A stretch of DNA of 64,000 nt. Source: Tigriopus japonicus (lineage: Eukaryota > Arthropoda > Copepoda > Harpacticoida > Harpacticidae). The DNA is taken from positions 21,935-85,934 of the forward strand of contig CM021316.1 of NCBI GenBank assembly GCA_010645155.1, given 5' to 3'. Below are positions 4,051-55,205 of this stretch, piece by piece (positions within the stretch are counted from its first letter, which is position 1; each line of letters starts with the position of its first letter). The notes beneath the pieces were generated by a model. It had not been told where the DNA came from. It searched no databases and saw only the letters and a program-made list of their open reading frames with translations. The position numbers were made by a program, and so were the translations under genes.

Positions 4051-4065
4051 ACAATCATCACCTAG

Positions 4066-5165
4066 AATCGTTGTCTCATTGGTGGACAAAGGGAGTGACC
4101 CCCATTCACGCCAATCACAAAATGTGTAGGGGTAAGGACAGGAATATCTTCCGTGTTTGATGTAGTAAGAGGTCGAGAATTCAAAATGAATTCGACTTCG
4201 GTTGTAGCAGTTATGAATTCCGTCATGGTCAATTCAGCTCTCTTGTAAATAGCAAGAAATGCACGTTTGAAAGACTTCACGACAATTTCAAACACCCCTC
4301 CAAAATGACTCCCAGCTGGAGGTGAATAAATCCACTCAATCCCCTTAGAGTTCTTGAAACCAAACCGAGTCAACTGTTCCAAAAGTTGAAAATCAACTTT
4401 GCAAATAGTTCCACCAAAAGATCATCGCGGCTTTGAATGAAGAGTAGTTGTCTGAGACTATTCGATTTGGAACACCTCGCCGATTTGTAAACCGACACAA
4501 GGCTTGGTAAACATCCATTGTAGTCATGCCTGGAGTTACTTCTAGATGTAGACTCAAACTCTAGTCTGTAGACAAGAAATGACCAAAACATAAGCCTTAG
4601 GTCTTTCCCTTGTGGAACGGGTAGTCTTCAACTGTTTGATTTCAAAACTTCCCGTGAAATATATTCCCACGGATGAAAACGCCCTCAAACTTTCCGAGTA
4701 ACGATATGAGGGAAGGCTATCCATCATAGGAATCTGAGGTTGAGCACTCTTCTTTTGGCATCGAACACATGATCGGCGAGCTTTTCTTTCCAATTTATAC
4801 ACTCCAGGAATCAAACAATGTTTTCCGATCTCCGCCTTCATCGCATTGGTACCAACGGGATGTTGAAAAAGATGATGAATGTTTTGGACAAACAGGAAGG
4901 TGATTGGATGGTTTGTTGGTAGAATCATGGGCAATTGAACTTCAACATGGAGTAAGTCTGATCTATCTAATCTTGATCGAGCACGTACGAGGCCCAACTC
5001 ATCTCTGAATGGACAGTATTTGGCGAGATGGTGATTAGATTTCAAATTCGAGAAATCTTCACCACGAAAGCAATCTTGTGCCAATTTGAATCCAAGGTTC
5101 CTTGCCAATTCTGCAAAAATGTTAAGAAATCGTGTCGAGATGAAAATGTGTTTTGCAAGAGTCAC
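4066..5165 (-). pseudogene. BEL/Pao integrase, two broken frames
   Basis: The part at 4554-5165 shows a His-His-Cys-Cys zinc-binding pattern (HHLFQHPVG, then RRSCVRC) and the start of the core with VGIYFTG, where an Asp is expected. The part at 4066-4382 has SPPAGSHFGGVFE and ILNSRPLT, the end of the core. Between them (4383-4553) the frame is disrupted. The coding sequence is cut at 4065 by the satellite-bearing element. Confidence 0.8.
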
Positions 5166-5186
5166 TTTCTTCTGACAATAAAGATT

Positions 5187-6116
5187 CTAACACACTTGAA
5201 TTCTGAGTAGAAGTGACATTCTCCTCAGGAAAGAGTTCCATCCATTCCAAATATCACCAACCGATGCACGCGGGCAAATGAACCCCCAAATATTACTTTC
5301 TTCTACGACATTAATGAAGGCTTGAATCTTTTGCTCTCGCTCCTCCATGTTATCCAGACCAAAATCCAACCTCGTCTCCGGCCATGAAGTTTTGGGACTA
5401 ATCAAAAACGATGGACCTCGATAAAATCGATCTGCAACCAACAAATCTTTCACCGGAAGGCCTCGCGATGGAATATCTGCTGGGTTTTCCGATCTGGGCA
5501 CGTGTCGCCATTGCCTGGGATGTGATGGTTCTTGGATTTCACCAACACGATAAGCGACAAAGACTTTGAAGTGTTTGGCAAGATTATTCAACCAATAAAG
5601 GACATTTTTTGAATCTGTCCAAAAGGTAATCTCGTGTTTCTCTTTCTGCAAAGCCTTGTATATTTGAAGCCACCACTGCACTCCTAATTGTGCGGCATAG
5701 AGTTCTGACCGTGATATTGAAGCGGCTTTCATCGGAGTTACTCGGGCCTTACTGAATACCAGACTTGATGACAATTGGTTCTCAGTTTCGATTAATAAAT
5801 AAAAGCAGCACGCAATCGCATCAATGGATGTATGTACAAAGCAATGTACTGTTGATATGGAGATTAGGGAAAGTCCCAAATGTCGCGGCACATGAATTCT
5901 GTTCAAATCTTTTGACTCTTCTCGCCACACTCGCCATTTTGCTTCCAATTGTGGAATCAATTCATCGTCCCAGCCACATTTTGTAGCAACGGCTTCTTGT
6001 AAAATGATTTTTCCACGGATTAGATACGGCGACAGAAATCCCAAGAGATCGAATTGTCTATGAAGAGTGGACAACATTCTTCTTTTCGTCCAAATAATTT
6101 GGCGTCTCAAAGACAA
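5187..6116 (-). pseudogene. BEL/Pao RNase H region
   Basis: This segment overlaps the end of the reverse transcriptase in another frame. It contains SRSELYAAQLG, FWTDSKNVLYWL and NPADIPSRG, the later acidic positions of an RNase H of this group. The first catalytic Asp appears replaced (FVHTS), so activity is unlikely. The stop before the integrase is premature. Confidence 0.8.
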
Positions 6117-7422
6117 ACTTGTCTGTATCGGGTTCCCATTTCATGCCCAACACTTTGCTTCTACCCAATGAGCTGTCTGGAGTCAAATCGACAGCCTGTT
6201 TCGCGCGTTCCTCCACCTGAAGTTGATCCAAAACGTAACGGGAGTTTGACAACCACTTTCTAGGCACCGTCGATGCAAAACACAACGACTCCTTAAGCTC
6301 TTTGATTTCTTTGATAACTTCTTCTTTGGTTGGTTTTGAATCGGTGATATCATCTATATACGTTTGGTTTTTTATCGCTTCCGATGCCAAGGGATGTTTG
6401 ATGAAGGGAAGGGCATGTTTTCCGTGCATTTTCACATTTTCGAGTAGAGTCTTCTGAGAGATGTTTGGTGAAGCTTTGTTTCCAAAAAGACACACTAGAT
6501 ATTCATAATCAGTCACGTTTCCCTCAGCATCGATTATCAAAAATCTATGGTAAGGTTGATCTTTTTCCGCCAAAGCAATTCGATTGAACATCTGCGAGAT
6601 GTCCCCAACAATGGCATATATGAATAATCGAAATCCAATCATGCAATGCAACAAGCTTTGAACCAAGTTTGGAGTATCCATAATAGCGTCGTTAAGGGAT
6701 ATTCCTTCACACTTAGCTGCAGCATCGAACACAACTCGAACTTGATTTGTGGTCCTGGAACGATCGACCACAGGAAAATAAGGAAGATAAAATCCATCCT
6801 GACCGGGTTTCTGAAGCTTAAGTATATACTTCATTTCAAGATATTCCTTGAAAATATCCTCAATTTCTTGGAGAGTGCAGCCTCTTTTGGTTAAATATGA
6901 TGTACTGAGGGATCTTTTTTGTCTTGCCAGAACCTGTTGTCGATTTGCTGGAAGGTTTGGTTTTTCTTTGTTAGTTTTCCATGGAATATGAGCAATAAAC
7001 TTTCGTTCTTTCCGATTGTATTCGATCCCCATTTTCTCATAGCCTTTCTTCTCATTAATGCTCCATTCTTGATCTTTGATTTGTGAAGTTTCCAGCTCCC
7101 AAAATTGATTTGCCAAATCTTCCATGGAGTATTCTATTTCCTCCCCTTCCGTGCTTTCGAACGAAGAACGAAAGCAAAGATTTGTAGCATTTAGAGTTCG
7201 CGATGAGTTATTCGGTCCCATTAAAACCCACCCCAATCGAGTCAAGGTTGCGGTCGGGGCACGAATATCCTTTAGATCCAGGCGTGATTCCAACGGTGTA
7301 AGAAGTCCGGGATAGTCGGTTCCAATGACCAATTGAACCTCCTCCTCAATTAATGGTGCCAGTGAAACATCACTTAAGTGTGATTTTTTACCAACCATTT
7401 CAGTCCAATCCACTGGATACAA
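6058..7422 (-). pseudogene. BEL/Pao reverse transcriptase
   Basis: A 454-codon open segment copies RNA to DNA in intact elements. Motifs: FYLPYFPVVD, then RVVFDAAAK, GISLNDAIM, GDISQMFNRIALAEKDQ (first catalytic Asp in GDIS), and the catalytic QTYIDDITDS. Spacing between palm motifs is as usual for the family. The upstream part overlaps the protease side and contains the linker. Despite an intact palm, it is isolated from the other pol domains by frame changes on both sides. Confidence 0.9.
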
Positions 7423-7454
7423 CGAAGGACAAACGGATGCAATCGCATAGGCTT

Positions 7455-7766
7455 TTAAACTGTAACGATTATTTTCAGAGAGACCATACTTTGACAGTTG
7501 TATTGTTGCAACGATGATACTTGAAACTCCACAGGGATTGCCTTGGTTTTCACTTTGACTCCCGTAAAAACATTTAGATTTGTTTCTGTTGTTCTACCAT
7601 TAGGTTTCATTTTTAGATCGTTCATGAGATCTTGGGAAATATTGGTGTTATTGCAACCATCATCAAAAAGAGCGTTCACTATTTTAGAGTTCCCACCATA
7701 ATGGACACATACAGGGGCAATGGCAACGGCTACGTTATATCGTTGTTTTTGACTATTATTCCTCAA
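7455..7766 (-). pseudogene. BEL/Pao aspartic protease fragment
   Basis: A retropepsin-like segment follows gag: hydrophobic strand, then ALFDDGCNNT where a D-S/T-G active site is expected, so the middle residue is changed. It ends in a different frame from the reverse transcriptase segment that follows, another sign of decay. Identification rests on position and the partial active-site context. Confidence 0.6.
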
Positions 7767-8684
7767 AAGATTGGAATGAACCCCAAGGTCGATTTTTCAT
7801 CACTTTCTTCTGAAGAGTTCTCCGATGATTTCTCAAAAACAGTGGCTACACTCTCGTTTTTTCTTTCATGATCCTTTGGTCTCTTACCCAAATCATTCCG
7901 ATGCAACATGGTGTGATGACCTGGCTTGCCACATCTCTCATACTTGGTAGAACTTTTGCTATACTTCACAGTGTGGGAGCTTCTAAGACACCGAATGCAG
8001 TGTCGATTACCGCGGATTAATTCAAACCTTTGTTCTTGACTCATTTGAAGAAATGCCTCACAAATGACCATTGGATGAAATTCACTTCTTTTGCAACAAA
8101 AACACACCCATGAATTCTTTTTTTCTACACTAAATCCACAACCATCTTCCGATTCTGATTCTGACGAACTTGGAAGCGAAAATCGAACTGGTTTTTGATG
8201 TCTCTTCTTTTTCGAGCTTCTTTCTGCTGAGCCCAAGTTTGAGTTTACTGAAAACGAAGTTTTGTTGGAACCACTGCTTGACTTAAAATCCGGCGATAGT
8301 ACTTCCACTGCAGTGCTTGAATCCACAAAAGATTCTAGCCAGCAACGAATCGATTTCAAGTGAATGGCCCATCCCTGTTGTTGGCACCAAACCGAATAAT
8401 CCTTGATGAAGACCCCCAATTTGCTCCAAGCTTTCTGAGTTAGCTCATGGCTGGTAGAAACCAAAGCATGGTGATCAGTGATCACCATCCTCATTAATCA
8501 TCCTGCAAATTCCCTCCATCTTTGAAAAAAGTCTTCGAATCTCCGTGGCATTATAACTTTTGAGAGGCTTAATGTCGTCAAAAGTGTTTGTGATGTTCTT
8601 CGATAATTTCCCTTTCATGCTCTCTTTATGTTCATCACCAATTCCCTTTTGCGTTCTTAGTGTTTTCTTCTTTGCTCGCTTACT
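7763..8684 (-). pseudogene. BEL/Pao gag, frameshifted
   Basis: The 3' part (8494 down to 7763) carries a cysteine/histidine region before a basic tail: CIRC, CGKPGHH, MLH, as in gag zinc knuckles. The first knuckle lacks a clear final Cys (KYSK in its place), so it is degenerate. The upstream frame (8684 to about 8474) encodes a lysine-rich, helical segment. The two are out of register at a tandem duplication of GTGATCA (8471-8477 and 8478-8484) that shifts the frame by 7 bp. A serine-rich stretch lies between the helical part and the knuckles. The frame ends four bases into the protease frame. Confidence 0.75.
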
Positions 8685-16354: not shown

Positions 16355-17545
16355 TAAAGAGAGTTAATGATTAATTTAGTTTCAATAATTTTTGTTCATT
16401 TGAAATTTGATCTACTTATGAGTTACTGTTGGCAGATCTATACAACCCTTGTATAGTGGGTTGATCAGGAATAGTTTTAAAAAATTTGTCCAATCCTGCC
16501 TTAAATGCTGTTAGAGGATCAGCTCCTACATATTCCCGACGAAGGCAAATAGGCAACAAATTGAACAATGAAGGAGCCCGATAAAGAAGAGAGGAGGACT
16601 TCATAGTTTGAACTAGCCTCGATTCCTTTGGATTTGGAGGTGCTCTCAGGGCGCACGTAAAACCTTTACGATCGCTACAACTGATCTCAAAGCCTTGGTT
16701 AGGACAGAGCCCATGAATGCTCTTGAAAACATACAGTATCAGATACCTTTCATACCTTCTCTGAGTACTGTACGGCCCTAACTTTTGGAATCTCTCGCAA
16801 AACGAGAGCTCTCTCATTCCTGAGATGTTCCTAGTAAAACATCGTTGGACCTGCTCCTTTGCAAACCTGCTGAACTCATTGGAGCCCAAATGGGTGAGGC
16901 ATATTCAAGATGAGGCTGAACAATCGACTTGCACACAGTTAGTATCGTAATGCTATCTCTGGACTTGAAAGTGCGATAGATCCAGCCGCAGGTTTGAAAT
17001 GCCTTCCCCACTTTCAACTGGATGTGCTCATCAAACTTTCCATCATCTTGGACGACAACTCCTAAATCCCTCATGGGCAATACCTGTTCAATATCACAAC
17101 CTCCATTGTCTTTGAGCGGAACATCTAATTTTGACGCCCCACACGGCATTGAGCGGAATTTCTTCCCGTTCAACGCCATGTTGTTCTCGCCAACCCAAGA
17201 GTAGACTTTCTCCAAGTCATCTACTAAACATTTTGAGTCCTGACCATTCCTTCCACAAACTAATTTTGCATCATCAGCGTATGAAGAAATACTGGCTTTT
17301 GTTCCAAACTTCTGGAGAGGAGCAATAAAGAGAATAAACAGGAGCGGACCTACAATTGAACCTTGTGGAACACCTGACTTGACATCACACATGCCACTAA
17401 ATGATCCTTCAACCTTGACTATTTGCTTCCTATCACCCATGAAACTACCAATCCAATTCAAGACCTTACCTTGGATCCCAAACTCTTTAAGTTGATCGAG
17501 CAAAATACCATGATCTACCTTATCAATCTCAATTTCAACCTTATC
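16355..17545 (-). pseudogene. 5'-truncated CR1/jockey-like LINE, RT and 3' end
   Basis: Two overlapping minus frames. 17503 to 16814 encodes VDHGILLDQL, SGVPQGSIVGPLLF (finger/palm), the catalytic SSYADDAKLV, then MALNGKKFRSM and MRDLGVVVQDDGKFDEHI. 16889 to 16416 encodes the C-terminal region ending RSANSNS. A frameshift near 16814-16889 separates them. Upstream of about 17545 the element is missing (5' truncation, typical of LINE retroposition). The 3' tail ends TAATCATTAACTCTCTTTA; the same tail is present at 39398-39588 and 45718-45847 with different flanks, which defines the true 3' end. Confidence 0.88.
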
Positions 17546-18185
17546 ATCGTTGATTCACTTTAATCCATATTTTGTTGTTCTGAGGTTTTTATTTGATGCC
17601 TTCTAGTTAAATTTTATCCCACGTTAATAATTTTCTCAAAAAAAACAATCTATCTGAGATTTTTTTATGCAATGGCATTTGACATTTCGTCCAAGCATGA
17701 TTTTGTTTTGTCAGAATTGTTCTCACTGGATCAGACGCTCATTCAACAGACTAGTTGTTAGTGAAAATATTTTAATAGTTATCAATTAGGAACAATTTAT
17801 AGATGAACCCATAAATATGCTCACGAACAAATTCGCTAAATTGTAGACCTGTGTCAAATACTTCTGAAATGTTATCAATAGGGCCCGGAAAAATATTTAC
17901 AAAAATGTGACAAAATAATCAATATATATTTTCTTCAAAAGCCTAAAATATTTGGAGAAAAGGCCGGATATTTAAGAAGTAATTTTTATGACAAGACCAT
18001 TTTTTGGTATTTTTGTCTGTGTGCTTCGATTTTCCAAATTTGTTTCTGGTGAAATAGATGCATTTGGCCGTTTTTGAGCATTGGTCGTTCATTTATTTTC
18101 GTCAATTTTGCCCAAAATATTTTTTTGACTAGAATATTCGAGAAAACATATTTTTACTTGAAACAGCCAAATGCTGAAGGTTACT

Positions 18186-19740: not shown

Positions 19741-22700
19741 TCAAATACAAGTACATCGATCAATAGTCAACTTGGCTTTTGGGTTTCCACTTTTGCTTCC
19801 AAAAGCTTCGATACGTTTCACCACGTCCTTACTGGCTTTGTTCATGACTTTTCCAAAAACGGTGTGACTTCCATCCAACCTGAAATGAACAAATGGCTCT
19901 GTTAGATTGTAGCCAAACTTGTGAAAGGCCGTGTTTGTATCAAACTTTTATTCCACCCTCTATATCTGGACTGATATGATATAATACATATTACATGTTG
20001 TTTACAACTGATCTTCTGTGAGTCTCTTTAAAAAGTTTTGATTTAGCTTTAATGTCAAAAAGTTAGAAAAAGTTTTATTGCCTTTGCAACTAAGACAATT
20101 TCTAGGTCGCAGTTATGTGATCTTGATTATTTTGGTTTACACTAGTTCGGACTCGGTTTTAGGGCAAAAGTATTCAGGCACATTTTGTCCTTCGAAATGT
20201 TCTGACGACGTTTGTTATCGCCTCAAAGTATGAGAAGAAATTTAGCACGTGAAGACAAGAATAGTTTCTTAAAAGTTACTTCTCTAAATTACGTGAAAAA
20301 AGTATTTTCAGTTTCTTATTGAGAATACATATCTTACCAAGGTGTTTTGACAGACGTGATGAAGAATTGAGATCCATTGGTGTCCTTGCCAGAATTGGCC
20401 ATTGAAAGCACAAATGGTTTGTGCTTCAATTTGAAATTTTCATCTTGGAACGTGGCCCCATACACGCTGAAATTGAACGACAATCAAAGCATTTTTCTGG
20501 TTAACGAATTCTTGAAAATGCTAGCAGATTGATTTGTTGTTTACTGATGGATCCATATAATCAGCTCACAATACTTTCCTTAAAGGAAGGCCATGGCTAA
20601 CAGTGTTTTCGAGGGAAAACATTGTTACGGGGTAGTTCGTTATTGACGTCCTTTAGATTTTAGAAGTAATACATGACAAAACAAAATGTCCCAACGACTT
20701 TTTGGTAAAAATTAAGGGTTAACGGGAAAAGTAGAGATGTTTGTCAAAGACTTTGTTTACCTACTTCGTTCCAGTGATTTAGCCACTATTGGGTTTATAA
20801 TAGGCAATCAAAGCTGGCTAGATTTTTCAAAATAGAGTTTGCGTATTTTGAGTGGGAGAGACACGATTTTTTTTGCTAAGACTTGCGAATTGGAACGAAC
20901 ATACCTTAAGTTGTTTTCTTTGACTGATATCTCTTCAGTATTAGTGTACAATTACTGTGCTTCGAGTAATTCTGTGTTTGGCATAGAGCACTAAATACGG
21001 ATGTCTTTATCTAACTCTTTATGATTGCTTTATTTTCAAGGAATACAGTCCCTTGAAGTAGTACTAAGCATTCCGCGACTTTTAAAATCTCATGAATTTA
21101 TTTATTTATAACTAGAGCGGCCGAAAATATTTAATTAAATATAAAATATTTGATTTGAATATTTTGCGTTTTTGAGCTGTTTTTAAATATTTGGGCTTTT
21201 TCTTCCAAAATTAAAGGAAAATTCTTTTTTTTTTCATTGCAACATTTCAAGAATCTCCATAATTTCAGTAAATCTTTTGAAATTTTGACAAAAAATCTGA
21301 CCTTTCCAAAGACTACATTGTCAAAATCTTCCATTTTTTTCGACTCTTTTTGAGGGGAAAAGGCAAACTTAAATCAAAAATATACGTGATAAATAAATAT
21401 TTTGGTCAGCTTGGCCTCTTAAGCTAAAACAGAAAACCGTAACTCCTGCAAGAAAAAAATATATGGAAACTCTGGTATGAATATTCAACCAAACCTTAGG
21501 CAGTAAAATATTAATTAAATGTAGGGTATAATCAGGGACTGTCAAGAATAACCAATTTTAATTGCAGTAATGAAGGACGCCAAGTAAGGAAGCCAGAGTG
21601 GCCGCGCGCACTAATGCGTTCTTATAAGAGCCGAATGTAAGTGCTTCCCCGGCGTAGACGGCGTAGGTTCAAATCCTGCTGGGGGTCGGATTGAAGCTGT
21701 CGGGAGAAATCCTTCAATTTACAGGGAATTGAAGGATCCTTGAATCCTTGAAGCGGTAGTAAAAAATCCGCAAAAAAAAATATGATTGTTTAGTACGAAA
21801 AATTTGTTAATGCATATTTCTGCCATTTCCAATTTTTCATCAAATATTTGGATTTTTTAATCAAAATTTTCAGAAATGCCAATTCATTGACCAAAACTCT
21901 TCACAAATTGAAATATTTTGATGTTTTTTATTTAGATATTATTTTAATATTTGGGCTTCAAAATTAAATATTTTCGGCCGCTCTATTTTTTACTCATTGA
22001 ATTTTGAAACTGAAATTTTGACAATATTCTAATAAAGGTTCGGATAAAGTTGCAATATTAAAAAAATAGTTTATTGCCTAAAAATAAGATTTTTTGACAA
22101 AAAAATTGCATATTTGACCAAATATTGTCTCAATATTGGGCGAAAGTTTGTAATCTGAAATTCGCCTTTCCTTTAATCTTTGACTTTCATATGACCACAG
22201 TTTTGCTGTGCATAGTTTTTTCTAGAATTAAAAAAAAAAAGATTTTAAGCCTGTAAAGGGTTCCATAAAAGCGTAGGTAAAATATATCATTCGAACAATT
22301 TCCCACAAGATTTCAGTGTTTGAGCCAAAAAAAAATCCGAAAGTTGATGAATCAGACTAAAATGGCCAAAAAACTGCCATTTTTGGCGTCAAAAGTTGCA
22401 TTTTCAACTTCCGAGCCCTAAGTTACACTCCAACGTGCAACGACACCAAAATGATTTGCGATGCTCTGTCTCAAGGTATTTATACCTGTGTCCACCAGTT
22501 CCATCGTGAGCCGTGAAATCTCCTCCCTGGATCATGAATTTTGGGATGATCCGATGAAACGTGGATCCCGCATAACCGTAGCCTTTTTCTCCCGTACAAA
22601 GGGCACGGAAGTTCTCCGAAGTTTTGGGCACAATGTCATACTTAAGCTTCACATCCACTCGCCCCAAAGGCTCTCCATTGACGTTGATATCCATGGAACA

Positions 22701-23492
22701 AAAACCTTTCTTTTTCCGACCTTCATTAAAAACAGGAGATTTTTTAAAATGTGTCTTTGGAATTTCCCTAAAAAAAGTTACTGATTTATTCGTACCGTTT
22801 TCTCCTCGTCTTTTAGCCTTCCTGGGATTTTGGGTCTTGGTTCCATCTACGGCTCCTAATTTGGATCAAAATGATACGTGGGAAATAGAAAATTTAAAAT
22901 TGAAAGCTTATGAACTCATCACTTACCTTCCCGTTTATTTTTCCGCTTCTTCTTGTTTCGATCCTCATTGCAAGGCTTGAAGATAACTTTCGATTGTGGA
23001 CATTCCACTGTATCGCCTCCTTTGACTTTGACCAAATTCAGAACCTTCTTCTTAGTTCTCGTGGCTGGATCGCAGGGCGTGAATTCGATTTGCGAGGGCT
23101 TTTCAAATTTACATTTCCCTTCAAAAAATACTTTGTCAATATATTTAGAACAGATGACTGTCCTCTTGCTGACATTTTGGGGCTTATCCGCTTGGTCGCT
23201 TTTCCCCATGATTCAGCCAATCAGTGTTATGAGTTCCAATTGCCTCAAAGCCCGATTGGTTCGTTCATAGCGACATGCAGTTAAGCGGTGAAGCGGACAA
23301 AACTCGAAAATACTGTATCTGTGGGAATCTACTTACCGTCGGCCTTCTGACGCGAGTCTTTGGTTCTGCAATTCTTGGTGATAATTCTCACATCTGGACA
23401 TTCGGGTTTGCGCTTTTTCAAGTTATCTCGTCTGGATTGAAGGCCAACTTTTGCGTCGCAATCTGACCACGTTCCTTTGCGGTAATGGCACT
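19741..23492 (-). CDS. Midkine/pleiotrophin-cyclophilin fusion (predicted, 5' incomplete)
   Basis: Five exons in one frame: 23337-23492, 22927-23118, 22486-22855, 20338-20466, 19741-19879, giving 327 residues plus stop. Exons 1 and 2 encode four-cysteine midkine/pleiotrophin-type modules (heparin-binding secreted growth factors): [12 protein letters not shown]...[11 protein letters not shown], and CKFEK...[11 protein letters not shown]...VECPQ...KPC with a basic tail. Exon 3 begins with a basic linker of about 54 residues and continues into the cyclophilin (peptidyl-prolyl isomerase) domain: [29 protein letters not shown], then [14 protein letters not shown] and [12 protein letters not shown]. 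The Arg, Gln, Trp and His typical of active, cyclosporin-binding forms are present. The 71-bp intron 22856-22926 has a perfect GAAG/GTAAGT donor, and phases match throughout. Alternative: midkine ends at a TGA in that intron and cyclophilin starts at ATG 22694. The 5' exon with signal peptide was not found. Confidence 0.7.
21113..21985. mobile_element. hAT-like MITE in the cyclophilin intron
   Basis: Terminal inverted repeats TAGAGCGGCCGAAAATATTT at 21113 and, in complement, at 21985. Flanking 8-mers TTTATAAC and TTTTTTAC agree at six of eight positions, as expected for an old 8-bp duplication. The interior is very AT-rich and hosts a SINE at about 21593-21780. It lies within the 2-kb intron 20467-22485. 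Confidence 0.7.
21593..21780 (+). mobile_element. tRNA-derived SINE, second family
   Basis: A-box-like GCCAGAGTGGCCGCGCG near 21597 and B-box GGTTCAAATCC near 21668, with a Ser/Leu-like long variable arm between them. The body ends in an A-run (AAATCCGCAAAAAAAAA). Nested in the MITE at 21113-21985. A relic of the same family lies at 57440-57530. Confidence 0.6.
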
Positions 23493-32700: not shown

Positions 32701-35700
32701 CCTAAAAGCAGGCTTTGGTCTTTGATTGTGCCCTCACGGTACCATTTGGCAAACAGCTGCACTTGAGCTCGTCTTTCACTTCGACAAATGCCTTCACTTT
32801 GGTCCAATTGATCCACTTTGCGCTCACAAGCCATTTGCCGCACGTCACATTTCCTCTGAAGACGCTTGATGAGTTTGGCCGCTTGCTTCAAGATTAACTT
32901 GACCAGGGATTGTTTAATGCGATGGATGTAACCACGATAGTAGTCCACAAGTTGGGCCGACCTTTGGAGCTGATCTTCCCAATCTTGAGGGCAAGAAAAG
33001 GCCGCTCTCGAGTCACGAAGGCCATCAAGATTTAACCCCCCGTAGTCGTAGTTGGCCAACCTTTGGGAACGAAATGGAACAAGATTTCTTGCTCGGGGAT
33101 CAATTATTTACTTTGCCTAATATCCCCAAAACAAGCAGGGAATGTAGTACCCATACTGGTATCAAATATGAATAAGATTATACCTCGTGACTCGTGGAAA
33201 TGGAATTGAGCATGTGTATCAAGAACGTCTAGAGAAGTCGGAACATTAAAAAAGAGTCATATTTCTCTAGACCTGCCAGATCTAATATGCACATAAAAGG
33301 CCATAAAGACCAGAATTATGACCGTACCAGCGACGATCTCGGATATGAATTAAGGCCGTTCCATTGCTTTCCCAAATGCAAATGCACAACCCATAGCACG
33401 GCAAGGATGCCGGCTTAATCTATAAAGTTGAATTCATGACCTGATTCGGAAGGAAAAACTTTTGCAGCATACCCTGAACTCAATGACGAGCCTGGGGCAA
33501 CTTTGGGGGCTTCCAAACTTAGCCCCTTGTGAGCTCGACAAGACTGGTAGGCTTGGATCACACTCATCGCCTTCGATTGGATGATTTTGAGTGACTCGCG
33601 ACTCCTAATGGATTGAAATTGGAAATTCTCTTGTAAAGGCCGAGCCTTCAACATCATGGAGGCTCGTTCATTCACCTGAGAACCTCTTGAAGCAAGGACG
33701 AATATTTATGTTGAGTCTGAATCCACTGCGGCATGTTGGACTTGGTCTGACGCACCGATTGCTGCTGAAGGCCAGAGAGGAGACCAGCTTGTTTGGACAG
33801 GTCCTTTAAATGAAGAGATGTGGCCAGAAAACCGTATCGGAGTCGCTTGTTGGATCTAAACAAGAGTATTGGAGACGAAATCAAACTTTCGGCTGAATAC
33901 TTTCCTCCACAAGAGGATCCAAAGAGATTCTTTTCGTGGACTTTGAGCCAGAATGAATGGCATTTCGTACTACTTTCCTGTTGCAGAGCTTCAGTTTGTC
34001 CGTGGCCATGGCCAAAAAAGGTCGCCTTTCATGGAGGAGCTTTTCAAGCAGAATAATTTGTCTGACGTATCCATTCAACTTGGTTCGAATTCCCCGGAGA
34101 TGACCTGTTAAGATCAATGCTTTCCTTTCCCCTCGATTTGACCCGGTGGAAAGGGTTTTGAGTTGGTCTGTCTGTCGTTGGATCACTTTTATAAGCTCAG
34201 CTTTCTCAACTTGACAACTTAAATCCGGATAAATATGAGGCTGAAATAGTTGTTCAGGGTGGAATGAAGGTTCATTTCCGACCCGACAAGATCTGAACCT
34301 GGTACCTTGAAACTTGGGAGACTGTCGGAATGTCGCGAAGGTCGAGGATTTTGTCGAAACATTTCTCGAAGTTGTTGGTTTTCGTAATTGAGTTGATTGA
34401 TTTGCACCTTTAGTCGCATGTTTTCTAGGGCCAGAGACTCTAGAAAATATCCAATTATGTATCAACGAAACGCGGTCCACTTTTGAACCACGTAGAACTT
34501 CCGTCTTAACTTCACGAATAAATCTTGTCGAACGGGTGAATTCAATTTAAACTTTTTTGTGTGCCTCGCTATGAATCTGTAATCTCGAAACATGAGACAA
34601 AATTTAATGAAAACGTTCAAGCGACACAAAATATTCCGTGGGTTAGTCCAACTTTTGGTATTTCGTGGACTGGAAACAGAACGTGACTTTCTCGCGAGAT
34701 AAATAAAGCTGAATTTTTGCCTCCATCTCCCTTCAGGACCTTCACGGTCTTGCTAAAGTGAGAGCTGTAAAAGTTCCTGGGACACAAGAATATCCTGCCT
34801 TCCCCAGAACTTTTAAAATGTCCTTGAAATGGAGGATTTGTAACCTTGGTTTCTGCCTTGAGTCTTGACATTCACCAAGATAAAGGACCCCGTTTCGCAA
34901 AACCTTTGGGAAGGCTCTTGTTTCAGGAACAAGACAAAACCCATCTCAGGTAAGACAATCTGAGGACACATCGGGTTTCTTCTTTCGAGACAAAACCGCA
35001 AGGACCAAATTCCCATGGTTTTGCTAACCCCCCTGTATTGTGCCATACTTAAGGCTCTTATGTAAATGTAGTTCAAAATGAAGTTTAACCCCACGGAAAT
35101 TTGAACAAGAGGCAACCGAACAAAGTCCTGTCAATTGATCCCAGGTCCGATAGAGTATGGCGAACGATGTTCTTTTTAACGAGGTGGCCGATTTACCTTT
35201 GGGAATCTCTCCTATGGTGCAGTCTTTGGTGAGGGTTCTTTGTGGAGCACAACCCGCAATAAATATCGACTTGAGTGGAATGTTTTTGGAACGAAGCATC
35301 GTGTGGGGATCACAGTTGCTCCAAGGTACATTTTGATAGACGCAAACTAAAATAAGATGAAAATCAAGCAACGGAATAACGAGGCGACGCTTCGGGGACT
35401 CAGGGTTCCTAATGAATGTTTGGGCTGTCTTTTTTTCTGGAGACAAATGATCCTTGGAATGGGTTTGATGATGTTGACCACTACAACTACCATTAGGACT
35501 GATGATATTGCTGAGTATGACCATCCCAAGCGTGACTGGGATGCTCTAGCATGTTATTGTAATCATTTCTTTGGCACGAGGGGATGTAGTCCTCAAAGCC
35601 ACATCTTTGGAACACAAGATCTTGATTCTGAATAGACAAGTGATCAATACTAGTTTCAATTTTCCTATTTGTTGACAATTCACAAATCTAAGGTCATTCT

Positions 35701-36898
35701 TAACTAAAGAAATATTTACTACTGGATGTCGGACGACCAACCGGTTTGGTTAAAAAATGCAAATAAATTCGCCAAAAAATGCACTTAAATGTGCAAAAAA
35801 GGAGAAAAAAAATCTTTTTAGGTGCAACATGCATCAACAGTTGAGGATCATTTGGACTAAATTGAATTTGAATTTCAACTCAGATCCCTATTAAATAGTA
35901 ATTTTTGGCCCCTGCCAACACGGTATCAAATTTGGTGGGCCTAGACCCAAAAATAGTTGCCGATCCCTGATCTAGGAATTTATATTTTACAAGAACCACT
36001 GATTTTTTTTCTGGACAAGAATGCTATCATTGATAATCATGCCTCCAGCACTAAACAAATCACTTTCGTTCCTCTGCAAATGACAACTTGCTTGTTTGTA
36101 TTGAAAATATCTCTCTAGACTCGGATGCTTAACTGATTTTAAAATAGGAATACTTATTCTACTCAACATAAGCAAAGGCTCATTTACGGAAGACCGTCCC
36201 GGATTTGGTCCGTGTAGAAATTGCCATTCTTAAGGTTTGCATCAGGGGTCGGCAACCACTTTTGTGTCAAGGCCCACCAAATTTGATTGCATGTTGTCAG
36301 GGGCCCACCAAACAGTCAATGGTAGGTTTAGGGGCCCACAAATGAATGATAAAAGAGCTTTGGGTCCACGAGCACAGTACAATGGATGTCTCGGGGGCCC
36401 ACTAGTTTGGACTTTCTCCATAAATCCTGGGCCCACGAAAGACCACCCTTGGGCCCACATGTGGGCCGCGGCCCACCGGTTGCCTATCCCTGGTTTGCAT
36501 TGTTGTTGAAAGGTATTCAGAGGTTCTGAATTGTTGTCTTTTGCCATCCAAGTGGCCAGTCGTCCGGCATTCATTTGTTTGTAAATCTGTGACTCAGCTG
36601 GACACTCATTGAACGCATTCAAGATTTAAATTTGGCGCGATATCTTTAGCGCGTCCGCAACCTTCTAATGATGAACATGACCCTTGTTACATATTGTTCT
36701 ATCCCTACTGCACTGCGAAAGCCACGAATCCTGAAACAGAGCCATAAAAAATGAGAAATTGCTCCTACCTTTGACCCCATTGGAGACGAGGATCTCGGAA
36801 TCGCCCTTGTTTTGAACCGTTTCTTGACCGGAGCCTGGCGCCAAAAGAAACACACTCAGGGTGGCCAAAATGAGCACAAGCCACGAAATCTTGGTCAT
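26776..36898 (-). CDS. Secreted midkine-module coiled-coil protein, 16 exons (predicted)
   Basis: Exons, 5' to 3': 36769-36898, 35197-35346, 34306-34439, 33942-34240, 33676-33855, 33473-33604, 32702-33060, 32246-32352, 30161-30488, 29379-29679, 28396-28577, 28122-28315, 27832-27991, 27542-27730, 27217-27346, 26776-26914. Total 3,114 bases, 1,037 residues plus stop; phases agree at every join. Exon 1 encodes a signal peptide (MTKISWLVLILATLSVFLLA). Exon 2 is one midkine/pleiotrophin-type module (CVYQNVPWSNCD, then four cysteines in all and LTKDC). Exons 3-12 are helical and mostly coiled-coil (QINQLNYENQQLREMF; LHEKEELEMQNRRLVERISK). Exons 13-16 are acidic and proline/glycine-rich. The family is not recognised; an extracellular heparin-binding oligomer is inference. 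Weakest join: exon 4 to 5, with an AA/GTCCAC donor. A hAT MITE and a hAT transposase relic sit in intron 1. Confidence 0.7.
35902..36175 (-). pseudogene. hAT remnants: MITE end and transposase C-terminus
   Basis: 35902-35969 is a truncated copy of the hAT MITE seen at 36244: its end, read on the minus strand, is CAGGGATCGGCAAC. 35987-36175 (-) encodes SERLFSAGG-like residues (NESDLFSAGGMIIND), the hAT dimerisation region of a transposase. No intact gene remains. Confidence 0.6.
36244..36492. mobile_element. hAT MITE with perfect 8-bp duplication, copy A
   Basis: Left end CAGGGGTCGGCAACC, right complement CAGGGATAGGCAACC. Flanked by GTTTGCAT at 36236-36243 and 36493-36500. The interior is rich in GGGCCCAC repeats. 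249 bp; lies in intron 1 of the coiled-coil gene. Related copy at 62462-62672. Confidence 0.9.
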
Positions 36899-39588: not shown

Positions 39589-40841
39589 CTAAGTTTAATT
39601 TGTTTTAGAATTGCATTGTATTTTTGCACGTGGACTCGCACAATCTTGATTTATTTTGCAAAAAACAAGTGTAAACATTTTTTCACCGCACCTTGTAGTT
39701 AAGTTTGATTGGGCACAAATCACTTACATCAAATGGCATCGTTTCGTTCCCAAATTACCCAAGAACTACTTACCAAATTTGTCAGAACCATTTTTGCAAT
39801 ATGTGCGGAAATATTTGGCAGGTTTCCAGGAGGTGGTTTCAGAATCGGATACAAGTTCAGAAGAATGCAAAAATTCGACTTTTGGGAAAGCTGCACGAAA
39901 TTTGAACTTCTCCCTTGAGTTAAAAGGTCATAACTTCTGCGCGAACATATCTTTGTCAAAATCATCTTCTCCAGAAACTAGCGAAATTAGAGACAGTGCA
40001 GGCCCAATTCATTGTTCCACACAAATCAAGGAATTTTTCTGAAATTAAATGTCGAGTAGATGCAAAATGTGAATAAAAGACACACAGCAGTGTGAGCAGT
40101 GTGCAAATCTAAAATCAGGACTTTGATAAGTGACACATTTTTTTAAGTATAAGACGTGGTGTGTAAAGATTCAGACTTTGAGGTTGGAGAATCCTCAAAC
40201 AGATCTCTAATTGTGAGACTAAAGTGTCCCCCAATTTTTTTTTTCAGAATCTTTTCCAGTTGTTTTCTTTCAATAAAATTTTGACCTAAGAAGTTCTCAA
40301 TTTCAATTTCGCTCTGTGATGATCAAACTTGTTCAAAAAATGCTAGCAAAACGTCATAAAAATCCATGACTCTCAATAATTAAGTAAGATAAGTTTTTAG
40401 TTATCTTAGTATTTAGTATAAGTTATTAAGTTTATATGTCTTGTTAATCACTAACAGGTACAATCTAAAGATTATTGTTTAAAGGTGAGGATTTGACAAA
40501 TTCGTGTAGATAAAAAAGCAATGACGGCCATAACTTTGTAAATTTTAATATGATTTAATTAAACCGTTCAGGGGGTTTAAAAACATGCTAAATTTAACTT
40601 ATCTTCAATATGGCCCCCATTGGCCGCAATACCTGCCTCCAAACGGCCGTGGAAATATTGGCAGGTCTTCACAATGTTCTTTGTCAATGTGACATTGCAC
40701 TCGGTCTCAACGGCAGCCTTCAGGGCGTCGATATTTTGGTGGGGTGTGGTGCAAGCTATTGTCTCAACAACGCTCCAAAAAGAAAAGTCCAGGGGATTGA
40801 GATCAGGCGAGGAAGGGGGGCCAAAGGTCCTTGGGCCAGAA

Positions 40842-41097
40842 CAGGGATAACCTATATAATAGTATAAATACTGGATACGAACNNNNNNNNNNNNNNNNNN
40901 NNNNNNNNNNNNNNNNNNNNNNNNNNNNNNNNNNNNNNNNNNNNNNNNNNNNNNNNNNNNNNNNNNNNNNNNNNNNNNNNNNNNNNNNNNNNNNNNNNNN
41001 NNNNNNNNNNNNNNNNNNNNNNNNNNNNNNNNNNNNNNNNNNNNNNNNNNNNNNNNNAAAAATCGGAGTTCGTGTCCACCCCTTTCAGGGGTTCCTG
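40842..41097. mobile_element. Unclassified 2-kb element, copy 1, mostly within the gap
   Basis: Starts CAGGGATAACCTATATAA and ends CAGGGGTTCCTG; the same ends are at 46394 and 48444. Flanked by GCCAGAA at 40835-40841 and 41098-41104. Only 41 + 40 bp of it are resolved; 175 N stand for the remainder, so the true length is probably about 2 kb. Confidence 0.8.
40883..41057. other. Assembly gap
   Basis: Run of 175 N. The flanking bases match the two ends of the element at 46394-48444, which suggests that the gap is a collapsed repeat. Confidence 0.99.
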
Positions 41098-41794
41098 GCC
41101 AGAAGGAGGGCAAGTTTGAGTACATACACTCTTGCATGATCTTGGCCGTGTGGCAGGAAGCGCCGCCCTGCTGCCACACATACTTGCCATTGGGGTAGGT
41201 GACGTCAAGCCAGACCTTCAACTTGGTCTGGAGCTTCTCTAAGTACTCCTTGGTGCCCATTTTTAGGCCTTTTGGGCACCACATTGGAGCCATCTTGATG
41301 CTTCTGACGCCACAATGCCAAGCATCTTGGCACTGGTGTGGAACTTTGTCCGGTTTAAAGGGGACAGTGCTGAAAGTCCGCAAACTGACGCCCATGGTGG
41401 CGGCAATCTCCTTTAGCGCCACTTGGGTGTAAGAAAAATCGGGTATCCTTTGGTTTCGGGATTTCATTTTTAGTTTGTTTTCATGAATTGACCAGTTTTT
41501 GGTTTCAATCGGAAGAGAAAGGTTTTAAGATTGTAGTGTCAAAATTTCCGACGAAAAATATCATTTTTGACGGCTCTAGAGCAATTTAAAGACCTACGCA
41601 GTTTTGTCTTCGCCTTGTATATTGAAAATTGGCAAGATATTTTTGGCTACACTTGCGTCTATTTAAGAAGAACAAGCAACGCCGGAATATCAAAGATTTA
41701 TTTTGTGCATTTTGGTTTCTTGCTCAACCACGCCCACTATTATTTGGTAAACATTTTTGCAGAAAAAATGACCGGGTTTGAAGAAGCGGCTTCA

Positions 41795-48444: not shown

Positions 48445-48610
48445 GGCCAGCTCATTTAGGAATTACTCTAACTTCAGCCAGTGAGCCTCAAATGATATTG
48501 GGAAACTCAAATCGACCTTGTATGGCCTTCAAAGGACCAAATCGAAATCTGACCCTTGTAGCACGATATTTTTGAACTTTTTTGATGCACAAACATGACA
48601 AAAAGTGATA

Positions 48611-48905
48611 TCCAAAAATTTTCGACATAAAAAACGAGATCGAAAATTTTCGACCTAAAAACGAGATCGAACATTTTCCACCTAAAAAACGAGAACGAAC
48701 GATTTCCCTTGAAAAACAAGATCAAACGATTTCCCTTGAAAAACGAGATCGAACGATTTCCCTTGAAAAACGAGATCGAACGATTTCCCTTGAAAAACGA
48801 GATCGAACGATTTCCCTTGAAAAACGAGATCGAACGATTTCCCTTGAAAAACGAGATCGAACATTTTCCACCTAAAAAACGAGATCGAACATTTTTCATA
48901 TAAAA
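48611..48905 (+). repeat. 27-bp minisatellite, about 11 units
   Basis: Unit ATCGAACGATTTCCCTTGAA plus AAACGAG. Six central units are nearly identical; outer units diverge and are 27-29 bp. Because 27 is divisible by three, both strands read open (plus KNEIERFPL, minus KGNRSISFF); these are not taken as genes. Confidence 0.9.
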
Positions 48906-50662
48906 CATCGAGATCCAAAAAAAAAAATATTCTCTTCCTTACTTGCAATATATTTTTCATCCAATCGAGGAATTGCACTTGATTGATCTAAAGCCTTTAG
49001 ATTGATCATAAACCTCAATTGAAAAACAGTTTCTGCCAAACATCCCAAAGGGAAAAAAGAAAGAAAAGTTGTCAAAAATTGGCGAAAAATGTCAGAGGTG
49101 AGAAAATACTAATCTTCCCTGAGAATATGGAAAAAACAAATTTCGACAACAAGGTCAAAAATGCGAATGAAAGAGAAAAAATGCCAGAAAAAAGCACCAA
49201 TTTTCGATAAAACGTCCAAAATGCCAAAAATACATACCAATCAAAATAATGCAAAAATGCAAAATAATCGGAAAAAGTGAAGTACCTTGCATTTACATGA
49301 AATGTGCAGCCTTAGTCATGACTGCAGACGGTGTTTAGTGTAAATTAAAGGCTTTATATACAAAGAAGGGCAAAGGATTAGAATCGAAAGTCTTCTCTGA
49401 TTAGATGGTTCCTCGGCACCCAAGTTCCGATTGGTCAATTAACCCTGTCTTATTGTCTGTGTTTACGCACTGATCAGCGCCCCCTGTGATCAAATCAAAA
49501 CATAGTTGCCACATGATTATTTGTAGTGCCACTCTTTGAGTGTCAGTTCTCACTCACTCGTTAGAGACGGCCAAAATATGCTTTATCCTATTTAGGCTCT
49601 AAAACGTGTTTTTGAGCATACAAAGCACGTTTCATTTTTGTTTTTGATAATATTTTCAAGCATATTTTAAGTTTTTGACAAGTATTTTTCTTAAACTATT
49701 ATAAAAATCACGAAAAAAATGCTAAAAACCAACAAAATTGATGATGAAGATAACGATGATCTTTTATTCGGGGGCCTCACATGAAACAGACAAAATATGG
49801 CTTTAAGAAATAAAAATTGCATGAAACATGATAGTAAAGTTTTCCACACCCCAGTTTTTTGTTCCCGAACGTAAGCAAACAAGCAAGCTAGTAAAACTTC
49901 CTTGAAATCTTTGATTTGTCTTGAATATAAACGAAAAATGTTTTCATTGGCACAAAATATCTCACTCGCTCATTTTGTCTGTAGCATTTGCATCTGCACA
50001 AGAGCACTTCCACCACGATTAATTTTAGTCCATAAAGTTTTAGCAATATCTAACATTAATAACTTTCTGTATAATCGTAACTTAGCGACTCAGCATAAAA
50101 AGTTTTGTCATAAAATGGATGATAAAAGTTTTTCGCGTTTCAAAAGACGTCAAAACAAGTTGTAAACTAAATATGACCAGCTATTTATGGGCTGAGAATT
50201 TGATTTTAAGAATTTTGGTGTCTTTTTGAGCTTGCCTTTCTCTTAGGCAAGTGGTTTTCAATGCCAGTGAGATTAAATAACAGCCCCCAAAAATGAACCG
50301 TGTGAAACAAAAAAATGTTTTCAAACTTAGCCCTGTTTTTGACAAGCATCTATGGGGATTTTTGGAGCCTATTTATGGGTTTTGAGCATATTTTGAGCAG
50401 TTTTTACACGTTTTTAGGATATAATACGAATTTTTTAAAGCATATTGGGGCCGTGTTTTCTGATAACTTGAGAATTTACTTATAATTCCTTTGTTTCATT
50501 TGATGCAACTCAGCTCTAATTTATTTCTTAAGAACATAAGTGGGTGGTAAAAAATCAAAGCTGAGAAATACTTCCAAATTTTCAATTCACTCCGTGGTCA
50601 CACTTACAAACAAATTAGTTTCATGTAAACATCCACTGAATATTGCCTTCCTCCTGGAAACA
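48906..50662. other. AT-rich non-coding stretch
   Basis: No supported gene or element. It should contain the promoter of the secreted protein gene that starts at 50663; I see no certain TATA element. Confidence 0.4.
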
Positions 50663-53141: not shown

Positions 53142-53340
53142 AGGCCGCATGATAACGCAGATTATATTTATTTAAGAGTACACCAAAATCAAGTCAGATT
53201 AACATTCGTCGAGTAAAGTGCTCTACTGCATTTCAAATGCTGTAGCTGAGCCGAGTATATACTTGACGAACGTTAATCTGACTTGATTTTGGTGTACTCT
53301 AAAATTCATATTACCTGCGTTAACATGCAGCCTTAAGCCT
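53142..53340. mobile_element. 200-bp MITE with about 80-bp inverted arms
   Basis: Arms share GAGTACACCAAAATCAAGTC and AGATTAAC, centred near 53240, where a smaller hairpin (TACTGCATTT...AATGCTGTAG) lies. Its right end directly precedes the LINE coding frame at 53356. Confidence 0.7.
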
Positions 53341-55205
53341 TCTTTAGGTTCAGATGTGGATTTTCTGAAACAGAATCTGAAATCTGAAACAGTGGTGGAG
53401 GAGGTCCAGGGCTGCTTGGAAGAACATCATCCCCTTTTGCAGCCCTTCACGGAATCCGAGATGGATGAGGCCTTCAAGAAGATGAAGAGCAAGGCCCCGT
53501 CGACATCAGGGGTTTCTCCCTTCCAACTTTCACTTCTCCGGACCCAAATCCAACCACTCCTACAAGATCTCTTCAGCCACGCCCTCCAAACATCTTTCTT
53601 CCCACCAGACTGGATGGAGTCAGCCATCATCTTCATCCATAAGAAGGGGCCCAAGGACATTCCAGACAATCATAGGACCATCGCCTTGGAAAACCCCTTC
53701 TTGAAGATGATGTCCACCCTGCTAGCTGCCCGCTTCTCCGGATTGGCCGAGGAAAGGAATCTCCTTCCCGAGTTCCAATTCGGATTCCGGAGAAGCCGCT
53801 CAACCACCTCGGCAGCCACTTTCCTCTACGAAATTGTGCACGCAAACATCAGCACTAAGAGGAGAGTATACGGATGCTTTGTGGATTTCTCCAAAGCATT
53901 TGACAGGGTGGACCGAACGCGGTTATTCCTCAAACTCCAACTATGGGGAATTCCGCGTTCAATATGTGTCCTGCTGGCCAACATCTATGCAGGACTCAAA
54001 TGCTCCATTCGTTCTGGTGAGGACCTATCCCCCTGCTACTTCACATCCATCGGCCTTCCGCAGGGGGATCCACTATCGCCAATCCTTTTCAACCTCCATT
54101 TATCCGACCTGCCCGAAGCCCTTTCTCACCAAGGCCCCATCATCAACAACAATAGCATACAATACTTACAATATTCAGACGACCTGGTTCTCTTGGCTGA
54201 TTCAGCCGTGGAATTGCAAAATGCCATCAATGCTCTCCACGGTTATTGCCAGGAGAACGGCCTTCAAGTCAACACCATCAAGACGAAGGCCATGGTTTTC
54301 CATAAAGGTCGTCTGCCTCCCACCTCCTTCCACATCAACAATAGTCCGATTGAAATCGTCAAGTTTTTTAACTATGTCGGTTTCACTTTCACCACCCAAC
54401 TCTCCTTCACCAAACACCTCAACATCGCAATAACCAAGGCCAGGGCCAGGATCGGATACATATACAATAGACTTCCAATCAAGAACCTCCCTCTTCCAAT
54501 AGTCCTTCAACTCTTCCGGACCTACATCACCCCCATCTTCCTCTACGGCCTGCACCTCTGGCTTCCCAACTCCGCCCAATCCGCTCTCAAATCCGCCGAT
54601 GCCACCTTCACCAAATTCTTGAAAAGATACCTCTGCGTGCCCCAATATGCCAATAATGCTTGGACGCATTTCATATGCGAAACCGAGCCCTTCACCATCG
54701 GGTTGGCAAGGTTAGTGTCCAACAGTGTTAGGAACCTGACCTTTCCGGAGGTGATGTCCGGACATTTGCTGTCCTTCCCGGTCAAGGACTTGACAACACC
54801 CTATTGTCCTTGGCCTGACATCCCTTCGGAATATTGGCGGTCACGCACCTTCGTCTGGCTTCCTGCCCAACTCCATCAACGACGGGAACTGAGGAAGGAT
54901 CTGTTCAATCTGACCCACCCCTTCTACTGCAATAACCAAGATTTTCACCATCTACCGCTACCCAACTGTATCTGTTCTGTTTGTCAATCTCCGCTTCCTT
55001 TCTTCCATGTGCACTGAAACGTATTCTAGTCAGCTCATCTGTGATATCACTTTCTAGTCGACCATTTTAACGTTTTTACCAACTGACATGTCACCATTGA
55101 TTATATATGATAAAACATATATCTATATACTTTTTGCATTTTATACGCCCTGACATGACCATGAGTCGCAATAAAACTTATTATTATTATTTATTTATTA
55201 TTAAA
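53341..55205 (+). mobile_element. LINE reverse transcriptase, intact frame, 5' truncated
   Basis: The plus frame 53356-55017 (553 codons) encodes a non-LTR reverse transcriptase: FIHKKGP, then FGFRRSRSTTSA, DFSKAFDRVD (catalytic Asp), IGLPQGDPLSPILFN, the catalytic QYSDDLVLLAD (YSDD), the thumb, and a C-terminal CICSVC. The endonuclease and ORF1 are absent, so it is 5' truncated. GC content is clearly higher than in the flanks, and there are no stops, which suggests a recent copy. The 3' UTR ends with AATAAAACTTATTATTATTA. A 3'-end relic of the same family is at 63300-63455. The clade is not resolved. Confidence 0.88.

Follow-up and report, generated by a model that had tools for sequence, protein, structure and literature searches.

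Midkine and pleiotrophin, like Miple1 and Miple2 of Drosophila, are built from a leader, small disulfide modules and a basic tail (the PTN/MK family), and the vertebrate members place an N-domain ahead of a C-domain. Cyclophilin domains are joined to other domains in TRIMCyp, PPIE and RanBP2, all of them intracellular, and cyclophilin B (CypB, or CyPB in mammals) is an enzyme of the endoplasmic reticulum (ER) lumen in animals; mammalian extracellular cyclophilin B is not known to carry a distinct glycan-binding module within its chain. According to one report, Miple1 and Miple2 are secreted proteins that bind heparin in vitro even though the human heparin residues are incompletely conserved in them, and flies without the miple genes develop normally, with an effect on adult lifespan (PMC4224452). 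Another describes immune-cell migration and adhesion elicited by mammalian CyPB through cell-surface heparan sulfate and CD147, although its authors did not see direct CyPB-CD147 binding (PMC5292672). Here we describe a gene of the copepod Tigriopus japonicus in which two midkine-type modules and a complete cyclophilin are encoded in one frame. It lies in a stretch of 64,000 nucleotides, hereafter the window (assembly GCA_010645155.1, contig CM021316.1, positions 21,935 to 85,934 of the forward strand; C2:21935-85934 in the searched genome of 194.85 Mb and 158 contigs), and coordinates are those of the window unless a contig is named.

The gene resembles each of these systems in part. Unlike described PTN/MK members, its product has two modules of C-domain type, no PTN_MK_N domain, and a whole enzyme following them. 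It differs from TRIMCyp, PPIE and RanBP2 in that its cyclophilin part contains introns and is paired with a growth-factor-type module that follows a leader, and from cyclophilins of the A, D and E type in the leader and glycan-type modules in front, an extra cysteine, a CxC end and two residues after the GKV strand. The likeness to cyclophilin B lies in the proposed action of a cyclophilin via cell-surface heparan sulfate (PMC5292672); in contrast to cyclophilin B, with which the protein did not group in our tree, the task of glycan binding would fall to distinct midkine modules. The combination thus joins two well-known families and is undescribed as far as our searches reach. A first interpretation made from the DNA letters and open reading frames (the sequence-only reading) had likewise known of no such protein, and full-text term searches returned no account of a midkine-cyclophilin architecture in the literature that they covered, papers beyond that body lying outside them. 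Articles pairing midkine with copepod concerned, as listed, the salmon response to lice, glioblastoma and glia; none of those pairing Tigriopus with cyclophilin was, by title, about such a protein.

A seven-exon gene and its fused product

The midkine-cyclophilin fusion is real and conserved. Placing P0001, a public protein of 346 residues, on the window DNA gives a minus-strand gene of seven coding exons from 36898 to 19741 (17.2 kb), with GT-AG borders at all exon joins. The features that bear on the joins are as follows.

36769..36898, minus strand: coding exon 1, with start codon, hydrophobic leader and short N-tail (100% match to P0001 residues 1-43; GT donor, phase 1)
23337..23492, minus strand: exon 2, midkine-type module 1, Cys 45, 55, 75 and 85 (PTN_MK_C 48.2 bits; GT-AG, phase 1-1)
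22927..23118, minus strand: exon 3, midkine-type module 2, Cys 98, 111, 135 and 145, and basic tail (PTN_MK_C 30.2 bits; phase 1-1)
22856..22926, minus strand: 71-bp intron, the key join (GT-AG, phase 1; removed by splicing in P0001 and P0003)
22796..22855, minus strand: exon 4, basic linker, 60 nt, phase 1-1 (P0001 continuity; predicted confidence, pLDDT, below 50 over most of the linker)
22721..22795, minus strand: 75-bp GT-AG intron (absent from P0001 and P0003)
22486..22720, minus strand: exon 5, linker end and first cyclophilin part (Pfam match, P0001 mapping)
20338..20466, minus strand: exon 6, middle of the cyclophilin (Pfam match, P0001 mapping)
19741..19879, minus strand: exon 7, cyclophilin end, CxC C-terminus and stop (Pfam match, P0001 mapping, alignment)

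From 5' to 3', the introns measure 13,276, 218, 71, 75, 2,019 and 458 bp; the first four are in phase 1, and the two that interrupt the cyclophilin are in phase 2. The hydrophobic stretch of the leader exon reads MTKISWLVLILATLSVFLLAPGSGQ. P0001 differs from the window gene at 4 of its 346 residues and runs through leader, both modules, linker and cyclophilin, including the 71-bp junction. Its longest contig has 1,323 bases and, given this length against the 17.2-kb gene, is taken as complementary DNA (cDNA); the source label 'lgn' presumably denotes assemblies of public sequencing runs.

Two four-cysteine modules, a basic linker and a full cyclophilin in one frame, as proposed by the sequence-only reading, are indeed present on the minus strand with Pfam scores above the cut-offs, and the key join that it had singled out (a GAAG/gtaagt donor at 22927 and an attag/GA acceptor at 22855, bounding a 71-bp phase-1 intron) is the one used by P0001. 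Its five exons become seven coding exons in the P0001 mapping, with the leader exon (36898-36769) across the 13,276-bp intron. Of the 54 linker codons it had counted, the frame is open as described, but a 75-bp intron (22795-22721), which divides the third exon of that reading, takes 25 and leaves 29 before the cyclophilin; because this intron is itself open in frame, it was undetectable from the frame alone. Having no in-frame stop, it would add 25 linker residues if retained, and a linker-extended form of this kind may also exist. Transcripts split after module 2, with no splice from 22927 to 22855, had been named as the outcome that would speak against a fusion, and are contradicted by P0001, which joins all parts in 346 amino acids; separate midkine or cyclophilin transcripts may exist beside the fused one.

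Further proteins with both PTN/MK and Pro_isomerase domains, for which a search had been suggested from the sequence, do exist: precomputed annotation places both Pfam families in nine proteins (P0001, P0003, P0083, P0086, P0089, P0096, P0099, P0102 and P0105) among the best 120 of 7,992 matches. P0003, the Tigriopus californicus protein TCAL_07388, shares 89% identity over 95% of the query and has the same joins as P0001 wherever the two overlap, and the seven others are approximately 50% identical to the fusion protein. Three further relatives, P0093, P0115 and P0118, are shorter or incomplete and have a cyclophilin of like kind. Across the resulting 12 fusion-type rows, PTN_MK_C was detected in 11 and Pro_isomerase in all 12 (E 0.01 or better). 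The gene model of TCAL_07388 starts inside module 1 and its entry is labelled 'hypothetical protein' or peptidyl-prolyl isomerase, a naming and model start by which the presumably secreted fusion is hidden in databases. Identities between the two Tigriopus genes were 157/160 in the cyclophilin, 26/37 in module 1, 37/48 in module 2 and 34/40 in the linker, pointing to tighter conservation of the enzyme than of the modules.

The two midkine modules and the 60-nt linker exon each form a single phase 1-1 unit, the usual mark of extracellular modules spread by exon shuffling. The cyclophilin part has introns of its own, so it did not enter the gene as a recent retrocopy unless those introns were gained later. 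P0001 matched 29 places in the genome (best candidates scored), comprising its own seven exons and 22 others, and an intronless fusion copy was not among them; the 22 other matches all start at residue 173 or later, on which ground a retrocopy was rejected for this genome. The fusion probably arose once, when phase-1 midkine exons were joined to an intron-containing cyclophilin gene.

Within the 2,019-bp intron, at 21585-21770 on the minus strand, lies a short interspersed repeat with at least 39 other near-full-length copies at 85-88% identity (best 40 of 1388 first-look candidates scored).

Midkine-type modules and cyclophilin domain

Both modules of the fusion protein are of C-domain type, with four cysteines and one exon each, and both clear the PTN_MK_C (PF01091) cut-off of 25.3 bits when scanned singly. 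All eight module cysteines are kept wherever the 12 rows have letters, and the nearest solved structures by sequence (2lut and 2luu) are midkine-related growth factors. PTN_MK_N (PF05196) had no match in the fused protein (E up to 1), in P0001 (0.01) or at the locus. The protein thus bears midkine modules but, judged by its domain content, is not a vertebrate-type midkine.

Genome-wide, PTN_MK_C rose above its cut-off in three places, all at the fusion locus: the two gene exons and one position in intron 1.

35197..35346, minus strand: extra midkine-type exon in intron 1, 150 nt, phase 1-1 (PTN_MK_C 40.0 bits; splice sites and frame read)

This exon lies 12 kb upstream of the module exons on the same strand, would be in frame after the leader if used, and is absent from P0001; it could serve as a cassette or alternative module, or belong to another gene nested within the intron. 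Two sub-threshold PTN_MK_C matches (21.4 and 19.5 bits) were rejected by eye, neither strand showing a midkine pattern, and the lone PTN_MK_N match in the genome (contig C12, 21.3 bits against a cut-off of 20.4, E 0.05) reads, by eye, as a thrombospondin type 1 repeat. Searching the genome again with the distant relative P0096 gave no further midkine place. No separate midkine gene was detected by this exon-by-exon search of the genome, which a fast-evolving or exon-split midkine could escape, and we treat the status of the locus as the only midkine in the genome as a hypothesis.

The cyclophilin domain matched Pro_isomerase (PF00160) at 150.7 bits (cut-off 21.7), over profile positions 2-158 of 159. 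Of the catalytic and cyclosporin-contact positions in CypA numbering, 11 of 12 are identical in all 12 rows; at the A103 position, 11 of the rows have Ser. Judged by these residues, the fusion cyclophilin is apparently an active enzyme. Fusion rows share an extra conserved Cys near the domain start and a CxC end, for which we propose a putative disulfide that may link Cys187 and Cys345, and the alignment places two additional residues after the GKV strand.

In a 32-row tree, which included 12 other cyclophilins of the genome (two of the 14 extracted paralogue loci, L030 and L031, being omitted) and seven non-fusion proteins as eight domain rows, the cyclophilin domains of the 12 fusion-type rows form one clade with 100/100 support. 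Deep forks are weak (11 of 29 inner branches open), and the tree assigns the fusion clade no firm attachment point or nearest non-fused relative. The genome's row L023, which has a leader-like sequence and which we take to be CypB-like, falls outside the fusion clade in this tree of weak deep forks and no named CypB. An origin of the fusion cyclophilin from CypB was accordingly set aside as unsupported by the tree, within the same limits of its deep forks. A second cyclophilin gene (L025:1-560, at C3:8640-8642k) carries, ahead of its cyclophilin and in the same frame, a glutamine-rich stretch, and is possibly another unusual multidomain cyclophilin.

The structure model used was a prediction from a 62-row alignment; a 12-row model was poor (mean pLDDT 50), and neither it nor its fold search was used. 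By structure comparison, the cyclophilin part of the 62-row model is predicted to adopt a cyclophilin fold. The midkine modules were modelled as small beta units with block-mean pLDDT of 65-92, a confidence that may be off given that non-fusion rows hold other sequence there. In two fold searches, the 50 matches shown for each were filled by cyclophilins, with no midkine structures among them.

A proposed glycan-held isomerase and its alternatives

We consider the best reading to be a secreted, basic, glycan-held working cyclophilin made from one Tigriopus-type gene, with a probability of about two in three. Its preprotein consists of a leader followed by two modules of midkine C-domain type, then a flexible, basic linker and an entire cyclophilin of CypA type, and would most likely be secreted via the leader. 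The midkine modules and linker (net charge +32 over residues 26-346) would then bind sulfated, heparan-sulfate-type glycans of the matrix or cell surface, and the prolyl isomerase held there would have extracellular proteins as substrates or serve as a local cyclophilin-type signal. The proposal builds on the heparin binding of Miple1 and Miple2 and on the heparan-sulfate action of cyclophilin B; secretion, glycan binding, catalysis and biological role are what we infer from the sequence. More tentatively, the lineage's sole detectable midkine might be a secreted fusion with its own prolyl isomerase, a matrix-tethered foldase-cytokine, and alternative use of 35197-35346 might yield a three-module or cyclophilin-free form.

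Several points weigh against the glycan-held isomerase. The linker of the distant member P0083 has a net charge of +1 and is hardly basic, the leader was called by eye rather than by a signal-peptide program, and the length of the P0001 contig against the 17.2-kb gene is the one indication of its cDNA nature. An organism name is attached to P0003 alone among the 12 fusion-type rows, and protein searches limited to the midkine region returned two proteins each (of 32 and 17 candidates), which gives a poor measure of how wide the family is.

The alternative that survives best, which we nonetheless think unlikely, is that the cyclophilin is retained chiefly for binding and, together with the midkine modules, presents a ligand surface to a basigin (CD147)-type receptor. 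Mammalian CyPB offers a precedent in acting via heparan sulfate and CD147, albeit with no direct CD147 binding seen by the authors (PMC5292672). Set against this, 11 of 12 core catalytic positions are kept in 12/12 rows; a binding role would not exclude catalysis.

Rather less probable is a cut precursor, that is, a secreted preprotein proteolysed in its basic linker to release a midkine-like cytokine and a free cyclophilin. Processing linkers often look disordered and are basic and variable, and the linker here is mostly below pLDDT 50, basic, and variable in length and sequence among relatives. However, the furin motif RX[KR]R occurs in none of the 12 linkers (other proteases lay outside the scan), and the co-linear architecture is kept among rows that are about 50% identical.

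An ER-resident foldase, in which the leader would deliver the protein only to the ER and the midkine modules would bind clients of the chaperone, seems improbable. Its hydrophobic leader and intact isomerase site would suit such a role, but its C-terminus is CTCI (with a similar CxC end in relatives) and carries no KDEL-like signal, the genome already has a CypB-like gene with its own leader-like sequence (L023), and the strong net charge suits glycan binding. Both proteolytic separation and an ER role are less likely than the glycan-held isomerase.

Finally, that two neighbouring genes were misjoined by reading frame, or that the assembly is chimeric, might be suggested by the occurrence of both parts as separate proteins in other animals and by the distance of 13.3 kb to the 5' exon, across which other open stretches occur, but is ruled out by P0001, which covers all seven exons, and by relatives spanning the joins (P0003 and seven divergent proteins hold both domains), with the 22 other genome matches of P0001 all confined to residue 173 onward.

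A natural tie between midkine and cyclophilin would suggest that their extracellular activities belong together. The gene offers a clean system for probing a possible action of the isomerase in the matrix, and it bears on the role of invertebrate midkines.

Other features of the window

Intron 1 of the fusion gene contains open, helix-rich-looking stretches with plausible splice sites between 27500 and 34550 on the minus strand (for example around 34440-33880), which are possibly nested genes; none of nine stretches scanned there was over a Pfam cut-off. No tRNA (ARAGORN) or Rfam match was found in the window. By eye, frames in the open reading frame list at 4062-8497 (minus), 16416-17554 (minus) and 53287-55017 (plus) resemble retroelement polyproteins or reverse transcriptases, and a frame at 40577-41524 (minus), which includes a run of masked bases, appears transposase-like. 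At 48507-48938, overlapping frames on both strands contain, again by eye, an in-frame short repeat of FKGNRSISF-like units, which is probably a minisatellite.
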